DNA of 64,000 bases, taken from assembly GCF_001431405.1 (NCBI RefSeq), contig NZ_LDJL01000004.1:310001-374000 (forward strand), written 5' to 3'. Source of the DNA: Pseudoxanthomonas dokdonensis. Its GTDB lineage: Bacteria > Pseudomonadota > Gammaproteobacteria > Xanthomonadales > Xanthomonadaceae. Positions 16,394 to 21,418 of the stretch are shown one piece after another (positions within the stretch are counted from its first letter, which is position 1; every line of letters starts with the position of its first letter). The notes beneath the pieces are model-generated. The model worked only from the letters and a program-made list of their open reading frames with translations. It was not told the origin of the DNA and ran no database searches. The position numbers and the translations under genes are program-made.

Positions 16394-16522
16394 GCAATTT
16401 GCCCCGGTTCATGCGAAAATGCGCCGCGCCGTCGCCGCAGCAAGTAGTGACGGATCCCGCAGACCGCAGCGAACATCAGCGTAGCTGATGATCAAACCGG
16501 CGCGGAACAATGAAGCAGTAAC

Positions 16523-16561
16523 GGAAAGATGGCCGAGCAATTCAAGGCACCGGTCTTGAAA
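16523..16561 (+). pseudogene. Decayed 5' half of a tRNA-Ser gene
   Basis: Positions 16523-16561 align with the first 39 bases of the intact tRNA-Ser at 16579 with five mismatches (34 of 39 identical). The copy runs through the acceptor 5' strand, D arm and 5' anticodon stem, and similarity stops in the anticodon loop (TTGAAA). No 3' half follows; only 17 bases separate it from the true gene. It is a fragment, not a functional tRNA. Confidence 0.82.
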
Positions 16562-16578
16562 TTTGATGTAGGTACAAC

Positions 16579-16666
16579 GGAAGGATGGCCGAGCGGTTTA
16601 AGGCACTGGTCTTGAAAACCAGCGATGGGCAACCATCCGTGGGTTCGAATCCCACTCCTTCCGCCA
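16579..16666 (+). tRNA. tRNA-Ser(UGA)
   Basis: An 88-nt serine tRNA with encoded CCA. The acceptor stem pairs GGAAGGA (16579-16585) with TCCTTCC (16656-16662), then discriminator G and CCA. The anticodon arm is CTGGT-CTTGAAA-ACCAG with anticodon TGA, reading UCA/UCG-type codons. A long variable arm (CGATGGGCAACCATCCG) and the T arm with GGTTCGAATCC are present, as required for a class II tRNA. Confidence 0.97.
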
Positions 16667-16861
16667 ATAAAAACAAACAGTTGCTGGGGTATGGGGTCCA
16701 GCTTTGCTGGAGCACGCTGTCGGGGTAATCCCAGATTTGCATGCTCAAGGCGTGGCTTCGCAGGCGGACGTCGTAAGCCCATAGTAAGCGCTTGTTGCAA
16801 GCTATGAGATAGGGACTTCGTATAAGGCAAACTGCCTTCAGGGGACTTACAGAAGCGTCAG

Positions 16862-19800
16862 ATGGCGGTCAGCAATGAACTTCTAAAGCCGGAATCGGAG
16901 GATGCCTTCGAAGCCATGTGCCACCAGCTTTATCGGCGCATATGGGAAGACGTCGGGTGCGCCAGAGTCGGCAGATCGGGCCAAGCCCAATTCGGCGTAG
17001 ACATCATAGGCACTTATCGCCAGATGCAGATCGGACTTCAGTGTAAGCACTACAACAAGAAGTCCTTCACGCTAAAGACAGTTGCGGACGATATCCATAA
17101 GGCTGAGGCTGCTGGCCTAGCGCTCGGGCATCTAAAATTCGCGACAACGGCTCCCAACGATTCGAAGGTCGTAAGAGAGGTGTTCGAGCTGAGTGAGAAG
17201 CGCCGTGCAGATGGTCGCTTCACTGTCTCGGTGGATTTTTGGGGTGACATCTGTTGTCACCTTCAAATGCATCCAGAAGTTGGCCGGGCGTTCATTACGA
17301 ACTTTCCGGGTGGTGCCCTCGTTACGATTAAAGAGACGGCTGCAGAAACGCTCGAGATCGTGCGTGAAATGCATGCATCGAGCGGAAATTCGCACGAAGA
17401 AGTCATCTCGCTAATCAAAACCGAGTTCGCGCTGAGTCGAGCGCTACCCGTTCCGGACGCCAAAGGTGATGAGGCAGACCCTGCGGTTGTGGCTACACTG
17501 GATTTCGTGCGGGACCGCCTCCGTGAAGGAAGAACGAAGGATGCAAGGAAACTCCTCAGCAAGCTGGGAGAACCTTCGAAGTTTAAAGACCAATTTTCAA
17601 AATTTCGCTGGCACACCAACTTGGCCTCCATTGAACTTGAGGAGGGAAACACGGCGGAGGCCGCTGAAGGCTACCTCCGTGCATTTGAGTTGGCCAAAGA
17701 TAATGAAAAGGCGCTTTCCAATCGGGCACATGCGCTGCTCCTTAAAAGGGACTATGCGGCGGCGCTTGAGGCTTGCAATAACGGTCTGGAGATATTTCCC
17801 GACAGTCATTACTTGTGGTCGCTCTGGCTGCATGCGCAGCACGCGCTTGGAAATGAGAGTCCTGAAGCTGGCGTTCCCGATGGTGTCCGTGATTCACCCG
17901 ATCTGCTTTTTTCCCGCGCGAGGCTGGCTAGCAAGCGGGGGGATTTTGCAGGTGCGCTAGAGTTGCTACGCCTATGTTTAGACACGGATGGTGGATCGTT
18001 TGAGGCAAAGCGCGCCCTCCTTGTAGAGGCGCTCTCGTGGGCCACGCAAGAATCAGTGCATGCGGGGCATTCGCACTTGAGTTCCGAGCAGCGTAGTGGT
18101 CTGAATGAGGCGATTGATCGCTTAGAGCCATTAGAGCAGACACTTTCCTCTATCCAGTCGGAATCTACGTCGCTGGAAATGACCAGCAACGTTGCTATTG
18201 CGCTCTGGCTGTTGGGACAAGATAAGCGCGCGCAGTCGATAGCTGCGATCTTCCTGTCCAGGCATCCGCTTTCAGAAGGCTTGTTGCGGATTCGCCTATC
18301 ACAGCTCGATGAAGACGGTGATATAGCTGCAATCCATAGCTTGACCGATGAGCGATTGGTCCAGTTGACTATGCCAGTGCTGGCAATCCTTGCTGAGGTT
18401 TCAGCCAGAACGGGGAATTGCACGTGGCACGAGTCTATCCAAGCCTGTGTCGAAAAGGTTGAGGCTGACGAGAAGAGACTGCGCGACCTTCGGGTTCTGT
18501 CGTTTCAGGCTGTGTGGTCATCGGGGGAGCGAGATAAGGCTCTGGCGTCCCTAAACGAATACTTGGGGGCTCAGCCAGACCATGTGATGGCGAGAGTTAT
18601 GCTTAGCCAATTCCTGGTTAGGAAGGAGCTGAAGGATGAGGCGGTATCCCAAGCCGTGGCGTGTGTGCGTCAGGTTGAAAGCGATGGGTCGCCGTTCGAA
18701 TTGTTGCAGGTTGCGGACCAGCTATACCGGCTCGATAAGCATGGTATGGCCGGAGCTCTTTATGAGCGACTGGTTGTATATCCGGGCGCGGATGAGCTTA
18801 CGATCCGACTGCTCATTTGTTTGATTGAGACTGACCAACGCCGCAAGGCGAAATCCATACTTGAAAAAATGCCGCCTGCGGATAGACAGGTACCTGCGGT
18901 TCGCCGTATTGAGTGCAATCTTGCGAGGCGCATGGCCGACTGGCCGCGACTGCGCGAACTGCTGGCGGTAGAGAATGAGCGCGTTCCTGATGCTGCAGAT
19001 ATCGGGGTCGCTTTTGCGGGGGCGCTCTACAGGGTCAATGACCACAGTGCTCTGCGTGCGTATCTAGAAAGTGATCCGCGGTTTTCTTCTGCGAAGCCGG
19101 AGGACGAGTTTGAATTTGCAAAGCATCAAGCGGGAGTGGGCCTTTATTCGCTCGCAGTTCGGCGTCTGTATCGTGTTTATCGCGAAAATTCCGACAGTAC
19201 CAAGGTTGCGGGCTATTATCTCAGTCAACTGCTATTGGCTCCAGTAGCTCCTGAGCTGGCGACTCCACTGCAAGTAGCTCCGGGCGTGGCTGTGCTATTG
19301 CGTGACGAGTCGGATGCTTGGTGGGTTGCAATTGATGAGGGAAGGGTGCCTTCAGGTAGTTGGCCCGAGTTGGTGTCACCAGACTCGAGAATGGCTCAAC
19401 AAATAATTGGTCGGAAGCGCGGCGAAAGGCTTTTGCTCGATCGTGGAGTGATTAGGCAAGAAGTCGAGATCGCAGAGTTTAAGTCTATTTTTGCGTTCGC
19501 GGCGGATAAGGCGCATGAGCGAATTCAGGCCTCGGTCTCGCCTGAAGGGCCTTTGTGGAGCTTCAAGGCCTATAAGGAGGACGGTGAGTTAAACCTTGAC
19601 GCGATAGCGAATACTGCTCGCGGGCGTCGTGAGGCGATTGACTGGGCATTCGCTAGCTATCGAGAACATCGATTCCCCATATGTTGTCTGGCTGGATTGA
19701 TAGGGACTGACATCGTCACTCTTGTCTTAGATTGGCCGTACACCGAAGCAAGCTTCTTTGTCGGTATCGGCACGCATGAAGAACGTGACGCTGCAATTTC

Positions 19801-20725
19801 GCTGCTCGAGGCCGGCCAGAGGCGATTCGTCCTTGACCTTGTGGCAATAGTCGAGTTAACACGACATGGCCTCTTTGAGGATGTTGTTAGGCTGATCGGG
19901 CAGCCGCTTATCCCTCAAAGTGCACGAGATGATCTTGTCAACATAATTCAGCTAGCTGACAAGCAACAACCTGTGGCCACAGTAGGCGAGCAGGGTGGCC
20001 GCCTGAGTGTTACTGAGATTACGTCGACATTCCATAAGCAGCGAAATGTTTTGCTGCATTCAATTCTTGCAAATATCGATAGCTGCGAGGTGTGTCCGAC
20101 AGTTGGGCCGGAAGTTATAAGTGAAGAACTTCATAAGGCTTCGCAATTGCTAGACGCGCAAACTATCGATGCGATTTATTTGTGCATCGAGCGAGATGCG
20201 GTTTTAGTGACAGAAGATGGAGGGCTGCGTCTTTTTGCGCCTGCGTTAGGGTTGAAGAGCACAATATGTTTGCAGCCTATTTTTCTGGTTGCATGTGGAC
20301 GAGGGATGCTGGCAAAGGGGAAGTACGCCAAGGTTGTTGCCGAAAAAATCCAGCGAAATCATGATTTCGTCAGCGTTAGGGCGGAGGACCTTTTGCTTCT
20401 GGCCAACCAGGATGTATCTAAGGTCTCGGGTGATGCCCGCGCGGCACTGGAGACATTTAGACGGCCGTCAATTGACTTCATTTCGGCGGTTAAAGTGGCA
20501 GCCGAATTCCTGCGGGCGGCCATGACCACATTGCCGCCGGGCATTGTTGGGGATTACAGCAAGCTCGTCTACGATGTTCTCGTAAGCGACAGGCCAGATT
20601 CAGAGGGTGCGGTCAAAGACGCTCTTGCTGTTCTGCTGCAAAGGTGTTTTGGCAGAAATGGACGTCGATTGAATTCGCGTGATCGGCGTAGGTTTGGAGG
20701 CCTTCTAGAAAGAAGGGCCAAGTAG
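16862..20725 (+). CDS. Nuclease-TPR-GreAB-C-like-PIN multidomain protein, putative conflict/defence system
   Basis: A 1287-residue protein. Residues ~10-135 look like a PD-(D/E)xK nuclease: Glu17 in EDAFEAMCHQLY, Asp47 in FGVDIIG, and Gln60-Cys61-Lys62 in IGLQCKHY. Residues ~205-790 are degenerate TPR-type helical repeats (NLASIELEEGNTAEAAEGYLRAF is clearest). Residues ~805-880 resemble the GreA/GreB C-terminal domain (SPDSRMAQQIIGRKRGERL, 839-857). Residues ~985-1150 look like a PIN RNase: Asp992 in FVLDLVAIVELTRHG and Asp1119 in LVTEDGGLRLF. The tail is Arg-rich. No signal peptide or membrane helix. GC is visibly low. From memory, this order matches predicted 'TPR-GreAB-C-PIN' conflict systems. 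Function is inference; the reading frame is intact. Confidence 0.85.
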   Translation: MAVSNELLKPESEDAFEAMCHQLYRRIWEDVGCARVGRSGQAQFGVDIIGTYRQMQIGLQCKHYNKKSFTLKTVADDIHKAEAAGLALGHLKFATTAPNDSKVVREVFELSEKRRADGRFTVSVDFWGDICCHLQMHPEVGRAFITNFPGGALVTIKETAAETLEIVREMHASSGNSHEEVISLIKTEFALSRALPVPDAKGDEADPAVVATLDFVRDRLREGRTKDARKLLSKLGEPSKFKDQFSKFRWHTNLASIELEEGNTAEAAEGYLRAFELAKDNEKALSNRAHALLLKRDYAAALEACNNGLEIFPDSHYLWSLWLHAQHALGNESPEAGVPDGVRDSPDLLFSRARLASKRGDFAGALELLRLCLDTDGGSFEAKRALLVEALSWATQESVHAGHSHLSSEQRSGLNEAIDRLEPLEQTLSSIQSESTSLEMTSNVAIALWLLGQDKRAQSIAAIFLSRHPLSEGLLRIRLSQLDEDGDIAAIHSLTDERLVQLTMPVLAILAEVSARTGNCTWHESIQACVEKVEADEKRLRDLRVLSFQAVWSSGERDKALASLNEYLGAQPDHVMARVMLSQFLVRKELKDEAVSQAVACVRQVESDGSPFELLQVADQLYRLDKHGMAGALYERLVVYPGADELTIRLLICLIETDQRRKAKSILEKMPPADRQVPAVRRIECNLARRMADWPRLRELLAVENERVPDAADIGVAFAGALYRVNDHSALRAYLESDPRFSSAKPEDEFEFAKHQAGVGLYSLAVRRLYRVYRENSDSTKVAGYYLSQLLLAPVAPELATPLQVAPGVAVLLRDESDAWWVAIDEGRVPSGSWPELVSPDSRMAQQIIGRKRGERLLLDRGVIRQEVEIAEFKSIFAFAADKAHERIQASVSPEGPLWSFKAYKEDGELNLDAIANTARGRREAIDWAFASYREHRFPICCLAGLIGTDIVTLVLDWPYTEASFFVGIGTHEERDAAISLLEAGQRRFVLDLVAIVELTRHGLFEDVVRLIGQPLIPQSARDDLVNIIQLADKQQPVATVGEQGGRLSVTEITSTFHKQRNVLLHSILANIDSCEVCPTVGPEVISEELHKASQLLDAQTIDAIYLCIERDAVLVTEDGGLRLFAPALGLKSTICLQPIFLVACGRGMLAKGKYAKVVAEKIQRNHDFVSVRAEDLLLLANQDVSKVSGDARAALETFRRPSIDFISAVKVAAEFLRAAMTTLPPGIVGDYSKLVYDVLVSDRPDSEGAVKDALAVLLQRCFGRNGRRLNSRDRRRFGGLLERRAK

Positions 20726-20993
20726 GACGCAGGCCACGCTAGCGGCCATTGGGCGTTTAGCGCAGGCTCGCCGGTACCCCTGTGGCGACCAAGTTGTGCG
20801 TGCGCTCCCAGCGGCGCCCTACCGCGTTACGGTGCCGGTCCAACGGCAATGACAAGTGAATCGCCCCGGGTTCACTAGACATCTCCAAGTCGTACATTAC
20901 GACAATCACGGAGGTGTGTAAGAGTGGCAAGCGGGCTTCGTCTTTACGGCAACTCGTTCGATCAGGTACTGCTGTCACAGCGCACTCCACCCC
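20726..20993. other. Unassigned 268-bp stretch after the accessory gene
   Basis: No convincing gene. A 77-codon minus-strand frame (20757-20990) has no ribosome site or family match. The segment around 20857-20876 (GTGAATCGCCCCGGGTTCAC) is nearly palindromic and resembles, from memory, ends of some IS3-family elements, so a mobile-element remnant is possible. No second copy of the tRNA-Ser 3' end was seen here. Confidence 0.4.
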
Positions 20994-21215
20994 TCAAGCC
21001 GTCCGCCGCATCATTCCCTGGAACAGGCGCCATTTGCCGTCGCCGCCTTCGACATTGATGGCGTAGCCGAGCCCCTGCTGCTCGCGTTGCTGGGCGAGTT
21101 TGACGGCGTAGCTCAGCGCCGCGCCAGGGGTGGGGAAGTGCAACGGTGCCGATTCGTTGATGGACAACTGGTACGTCCCATCCGCGGCGGGGAGATGGGG
21201 CAGGTCGAAGGTCAT
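20994..21215 (-). CDS. Small conserved-looking protein of unknown function
   Basis: A 73-residue cytoplasmic protein, read from the ATG at 21215; a GTG one codon earlier is also possible. A GAGGGAA sequence lies about 12 bases upstream. The composition is balanced for a high-GC genome, with DGTYQLSINESAPLHF, a helix (PGAALSYAVKLAQQREQQG) and a closing strand pair (YAINVEGGDGKWRLFQGMM). This alternation looks like a real small alpha/beta fold. No family is recognised with certainty. It lies divergent from the response-regulator gene. Confidence 0.62.
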   Translation of the reverse strand: MTFDLPHLPAADGTYQLSINESAPLHFPTPGAALSYAVKLAQQREQQGLGYAINVEGGDGKWRLFQGMMRRTA

Positions 21216-21418
21216 CACTGGGCGTCGTTCCCTCTTGCCATCGTTGGCTCACCCTACCCAGCGGGGCGTGAGGCTTCCGTGCAAAGGCGGGCCGGCGCCG
21301 CCACCACGGTGTGCTGCGGACACGCCGTTCAGCGGCGATCTAGACAAAATGTTAGTTGCGGGGTCGAGGGCCCCGGAATACGCTGGCGGGCGAGCATCCG
21401 CTCGGGGAACAGGCAGGT

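Follow-up and report, generated by a model that had tools for sequence, protein, structure and literature searches.

The window analysed here, 64,000 nucleotides of Pseudoxanthomonas dokdonensis (contig NZ_LDJL01000004.1, positions 310,001 to 374,000), contains a gene (16862..20725, plus strand; protein P0001) for a protein of 1287 residues that joins a restriction endonuclease (REase)-type domain, an array of tetratricopeptide repeats (TPR), a domain resembling the C-terminus of GreA and GreB (GreA/B-C) and a PIN RNase domain. The gene is a well-formed, real member of the predicted TPR-GreA/B-C-PIN defence family, and its architecture is not new. We regard the protein, with moderate confidence, as a horizontally acquired, one-gene immune protein, most likely an autoinhibited dual nuclease triggered by phage.

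The TPR-GreA/B-C-PIN core has been described as a predicted conflict system (Kaur et al. 2021, eLife e70394, PMC8195603), as the sequence-only reading, an earlier note made from the letters of this DNA, had mentioned. According to that paper, the core carries 13 interchangeable N-terminal effectors besides EAD10 (REase and HNH among them) and occurs mostly as a standalone gene; in the model proposed there, the GreA/B-C domain engages the β′ coiled coil of RNA polymerase and PIN cleaves the transcript as it is extruded, with the N-terminal effector as a second line. The Pfam family PF20698 of PIN domains (PIN-TPR-GreABC) is named after the system. In the window protein we find the same features: an REase N-terminus, a TPR array, GreA/B-C between TPR and PIN, a C-terminal PIN of the PF20698 type, and a standalone gene. 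Core order, REase effector and standalone habit are thus common to both, and no fundamental difference was found in a comparison that did not extend to the REase-type examples of that paper, apart from the replacement of a loop proline in the GreA-like domain (below). The joining of a DNA nuclease to this core, which the sequence-only reading had implied to be novel, is therefore already in print, and the gene is a further member of the predicted system. No later experimental test of the system was found among the papers listed by the literature searches, with the proviso that variant spellings, preprints and most subscription journals may escape such a search. Other PIN systems have been validated (DefensePredictor, PMC13092281), and passages from PMC7159879 and PMC10853773 hold nothing on the window protein.

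The open frame is single and intact, from the ATG at 16862 to the stop codon ending at 20725, and it is not a chance frame, because homologues match along its length. A relative in the genus aligns to residues 1-1284 at 47%, and two further loci (L021 and L023) match the sequence beyond residue 200 along its whole length, their best segments reaching 50% and 46%. All domains are read on the plus strand. The PD-(D/E)xK, Mrr-like nuclease domain (residues 1-150, 16862..17311) is followed by a helical linker modelled with lower confidence (residues 151-212, 17312..17497), by the TPR array (residues ~213-795, 17498..19246, edges approximate), by the GreA/GreB C-terminal-like domain (residues ~803-880, 19268..19501), by the PIN domain (residues ~986-1150, 19817..20311) and by an almost all-helical C-terminal region (residues 1151-1287, 20312..20722; secondary structure from the AlphaFold model). 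The array is recognised by Pfam (TPR_19 at E 3.9e-14, TPR_14 at 5.2e-12) and by phmmer matches to TPR proteins in the PDB; a similarity to GapS6b (NCBIfam, E 0.012, residues 276-331) was dismissed as a TPR match. Scans for promoters and terminators gave signals about equal to those in shuffled sequence. The sequence-only reading had claimed an unbroken frame of 1287 codons, D47, Q60-C61-K62, a GreA/GreB-like stretch, D992 and D1119, and a chain of these four parts; the translation places each residue as described, and profile matches, homologue alignments and structural models support the four domains.

The PIN assignment is the most direct. PF20698 matches residues 990-1126 of the window protein at E 5.5e-17 (62.7 bits, with a cut-off of 27.8) and is found at E <= 1 in all 29 aligned members of the family. 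In a 29-row alignment of the C-terminal half, D992 and D1119 are invariant and position 998 (E998 here) is acidic in 28 rows. In a larger alignment (31 rows, L030 and L031 left out), D992 is kept in all rows and D1119 in 30, the remaining row being gapped there, which fits a locus cut by its contig end (L040). A third catalytic acid had been sought in E1052, invariant in nine sequences; it is kept in only 20 of the 31 rows and was dropped, and E998 is the better candidate. In the Foldseek list for the AlphaFold model of residues 760-1287 (mean predicted local distance difference test, pLDDT, 88.2), the PIN protein PAE2754 comes after GreA, GreB and Gfh1 (probability 1.00, E 0.033). Fold and acidic residues are shared with the PIN-domain RNases VapC and HARP; unlike these, the PIN domain here is built into a 1287-residue protein with no antitoxin gene recognised alongside among the open reading frames (ORFs) of at least 100 residues, a length that most antitoxins do not reach.

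The REase and GreA/B-C assignments rest on homologues and structure, because the window protein alone gives no match above cut-off. Residues 839-855, SPDSRMAQQIIGRKRGE, resemble the C-terminus of GreA/GreB. Pfam returns no GreA_GreB match for the window protein by itself; the family (PF01272) is found in 18 of the 29 aligned members at E <= 1, at best at 1.2e-5. In a single comparison by hhalign, the 29-row family alignment matches 14 GreA-type domains of the genus (probability 97.7, E 2e-12), these having been drawn from 20 fetched loci, one of which (L115) is a paralogue-like match of 43%. Against the PDB, the profile of the C-terminal half (A3) finds Gfh1 at 1.5e-4 and GreB at 1.4e-3; the two best rows (~1.4e-5) are designed proteins aligned to the C-terminal helices. 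In Foldseek, GreA, GreB and Gfh1 rank first for the model of residues 760-1287 (probability 1.00, E 0.0067), the E-values for this model being modest and none <= 0.001.

For the N-terminus, Pfam gives no REase-family match with the full protein, and Mrr_cat scores with the first 230 residues at E 0.0023 and 18.5 bits, below the cut-off of 21. In the N-terminal alignment of 32 rows, Mrr_cat matches 14 rows and Mrr_cat_2 nine (E <= 0.01); such family scans of alignments yield counts and do not tell which rows match. By N-terminal sequence, 31 rows divide into 19 of the REase type, eight of a second type and four that are truncated or frame-shifted (L022, L028, L036, L038); D47 is found in 19 of the 31 aligned rows, Q60 in 20 and K62 in 19. 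The three residues are present in 17/17 rows of the REase-type alignment (A5), an invariance that is partly by choice since the rows were selected as REase-type. The first 230 residues touch the LmuA model of PADLOC at 7.6e-6 (LmuA being an effector nuclease of Lamassu), and the AlphaFold model of the same residues (pLDDT 79.9) has as its top Foldseek matches restriction endonucleases (the small subunit of R.BspD6I at E 1.2e-3, HindIII) and Hjc resolvases, none at E <= 0.001. A profile search of the PDB with the REase-type rows found nothing at E <= 0.1. Homologues and model together support the assignment of residues 1-150 to a PD-(D/E)xK, Mrr-like nuclease fold with D...QxK residues. The PD-(D/E)xK core with D-QxK is shared with Mrr-like restriction endonucleases and with LmuA; the window domain is fused to TPR-GreA/B-C-PIN, whereas such nucleases work with separate partner subunits.

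The family is broad but sparse. Its own genome included each time, the gene is found in two of the 38 genomes of the genus, in seven of 369 genomes of the class (five over the cut-off) and in 14 of 398 of the phylum (ten over the cut-off). Among plasmids, tblastn matched 48 records, nine of them with a coverage of at least 80%. The genome collection yielded 31 loci, which are a biased sample because the scan relied on a single peptide pattern taken from where the TPR region begins, and IMG/VR yielded one viral contig, with the second N-terminal type. Three N-terminal types are seen on the TPR-GreA/B-C-PIN core: the Mrr type, the second type of ~330 residues and PNP_UDP_1. The second type, carried by L017, L018, L024, L025, L039, L044, L045, L048, L051 and L052, has an invariant TDDL and QxK and is likely, on these motifs, to be another PD-(D/E)xK nuclease. 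Its profile (A10) gave no match in the PDB at E <= 1, and, with counts alone from the 32-row scan, some of the Mrr family matches may belong to second-type rows. PNP_UDP_1 occurs in one of the 32 N-terminal rows, which its sequence suggests to be the Nostoc locus (L019). On a quick tree of the core (37 rows), the three N-terminal labels need two changes, the minimum possible; the sample is biased and the long branches (L019, L020, L015/L016) are unsure in position. Within this sample, the REase N-terminus is thus inherited together with the core. In Nitrosospira sp. Nl5 (L036, 7435-8090), the REase region with its QCK lies in a different frame from the core, through a split gene, decay or a sequencing error.

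The neighbourhoods of the relatives are rich in defence genes. With PADLOC at E <= 1e-20, two scans of the ORFs near relatives (167 ORFs lying up to 5 kb from 26 relatives, 231 kb of flank) gave 33 families for 78 ORFs and 55 families for 89; these are counts of families and not of proteins, and one reverse transcriptase can match many DRT models. The near-copies or close kin L030, L031, L037, L043 and L051 are omitted from the set, and L040, which replaced L043, gave no ORF. Among the 25 families listed per scan, each matched by one ORF, are DRT-type reverse transcriptases, Gabija GajB, type I and II restriction genes, bSEFIR, Qat, Mokosh, Shedu, HerA, SIR2 and Olokun. In the control, 108 of 158 ORFs (14 of 20 loci) from random places in the genus, only two families appeared, subtilase (two ORFs) and mad3 (one ORF); mad3 is present in both sets, and the control comes from Pseudoxanthomonas whereas the neighbours come mainly from other genera. 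The contrast is large. Of eight plasmid regions opened, four have annotated neighbours of defence type: TIR with ThiF/Mov34 in one, abortive infection in another, PDDEXK with SIR2 in a third, and Shedu, a UvrD/ATP-dependent endonuclease and ThiF/Mov34 in the fourth. The pairs of a ThiF-family adenylyltransferase and a Mov34/MPN protein near the rhizobial plasmid relatives L020 and L016 look like a ubiquitin-like defence pair. The label of candidate defence gene given by the sequence-only reading thus draws support from an accessory rather than core distribution and from defence genes beside relatives.

In the mechanism that we infer, the TPR array would keep the N-terminal Mrr-like DNase and the PIN RNase inactive and would also sense a cue of infection, while the GreA/B-C-like domain would dock the protein on RNA polymerase or another partner. 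Once triggered, PIN would cleave RNA and the REase domain DNA, and phage growth would be halted, probably by sacrificing the cell. Docking on RNA polymerase is plausible from the modelled fold and is weakened by a change in the loop. Because a single gene combines a GreA-like domain with two active sites that are mapped, point mutants offer a direct test of the idea that bacterial RNA polymerase is armed with nucleases against phage.

Several observations weigh against this reading. The Ser-Pro loop of the GreA C-terminal domain contacts RNA polymerase. In the window protein, S842 is kept and the proline is replaced by Arg843; the proline is present in all 14 GreA-type domains of the genus (all Ser-Pro) and in only 10 of the 29 family members, 20 of which keep the serine before it, so that GreA-like docking is not assured. 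The N-terminal coiled-coil finger of GreA is not found either: the model gives the two helices preceding the domain lengths of 15 and 13 residues, and no GreA N-terminal family is among the Pfam matches of the protein at E <= 1. The protein shares with the secondary-channel factors GreA, GreB and Gfh1 the fold and motif of the C-terminal domain; unlike them, it has this domain embedded in a large nuclease protein and, because no finger precedes it, is not expected to work in the way of GreA. The full protein has only a weak match in PADLOC (E 0.032), and tblastn found no relative in phage records. Three plasmid regions (L013, L015, L019) have no clear defence neighbour, and a fourth (L014) is unannotated. 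In the window itself, the neighbours (by eye, for example a serine-tRNA ligase, a LysR regulator, a response regulator and an RNase E-like protein) look like housekeeping genes, and the cargo carried by other genus members in the same genomic gap is mostly metabolic among the 25 of 45 families listed.

The poor conservation of the loop proline also favours a tentative alternative, possible and less probable than the reading above, in which the family and its abortive role are the same, the GreA/B-C-like domain is an internal adaptor and PIN cuts tRNA or rRNA, not RNA at the polymerase. Profile A3 matches HARP, an RNA-free RNase P, across some 43 profile positions (E 8.4e-4), HARP is in the Foldseek list too, and PIN toxins of the VapC type cut tRNA (PMC13092281). 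The HARP match makes a tRNA target conceivable; it covers, however, only a short PIN stretch, and Foldseek ranks PAE2754 above HARP and GreA/GreB above PAE2754. A more novel reading, that of a guard of transcription, seems to us unlikely: the protein would be docked on RNA polymerase and recognise complexes that have been hijacked or have backtracked, and from this one position PIN would cut the nascent RNA and the REase domain the template DNA. If true, phage transcription would destroy its own message and gene.

Just as doubtful is the proposal that one nuclease alone kills, with the REase domain as the effector and PIN as a regulator or first line, or with these roles swapped. A second line is what Kaur et al. 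(2021, PMC8195603) suggest for the N-terminal effector, the N-terminal domain varies among members while the PIN acids stay, and in the Nitrosospira locus the REase region is out of frame with the core. Against this, D-QxK is invariant within the REase-type rows, because of which both nuclease sites look selected. Very improbable, finally, is a housekeeping factor for transcription or RNA quality control with no role in defence: a GreA/B-C-like domain with PIN could suit such work and the gene's own neighbours would fit it, but 36 of the 38 genus genomes have no match, and the relatives occur on plasmids and in defence-rich neighbourhoods.

The gene of the proposed dual nuclease starts 195 bases past a tRNA-Ser(TGA) (16579..16666, plus strand), the left edge of the variable gap that holds it, and is the sole long frame (nested frames aside) from this tRNA to the right flank. 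The 2-kb bins that it touches have a G+C fraction of 0.54-0.59, against ~0.65 around. In regions fetched from 27 of the 37 genus relatives, tRNA-Ser is present in all and the gene in none (blastn). The distance from tRNA-Ser to the response regulator, computed in the 26 regions with both edges, is 93 bases in L080, 304 in L075, 339 in L074 and up to 18,357 in L072. The second copy of the gene in the genus is at a different place (G029, contig C3, whereas the tRNA-Ser gap of that genome is on C6). Among the cargo families listed from the gap (88 of 188 picked ORFs scanned) a few are defence-like, e.g., AbiTii and MTES_1575; given the metabolic majority, a dedicated defence hotspot was rejected, and we describe the site as a variable gap rather than as a proven hotspot.

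A partial second copy of the tRNA-Ser (its 5′ half, 16520..16561, plus strand, 88% identical) sits upstream of the intact tRNA gene, 56 bases from the stretch that it matches there, and no repeat matching it was found at the right end in the search for mobile-element ends. Partial copies also occur in four of the 27 fetched regions (L055, L067, L068 and, with two, L070); repeated integration in the anticodon arm may have left them as scars. Spurious frames are often annotated over tRNA genes, and a minus-strand ORF of 112 residues (16492-16830), which lies antisense to both the tRNA-Ser and the partial copy, is probably one of them. On the right side of the gap, ~200 bases (window ~20981-21230) are conserved at 73-79% in 16 of the 27 regions, with what appears by eye to be a small ORF on the minus strand.

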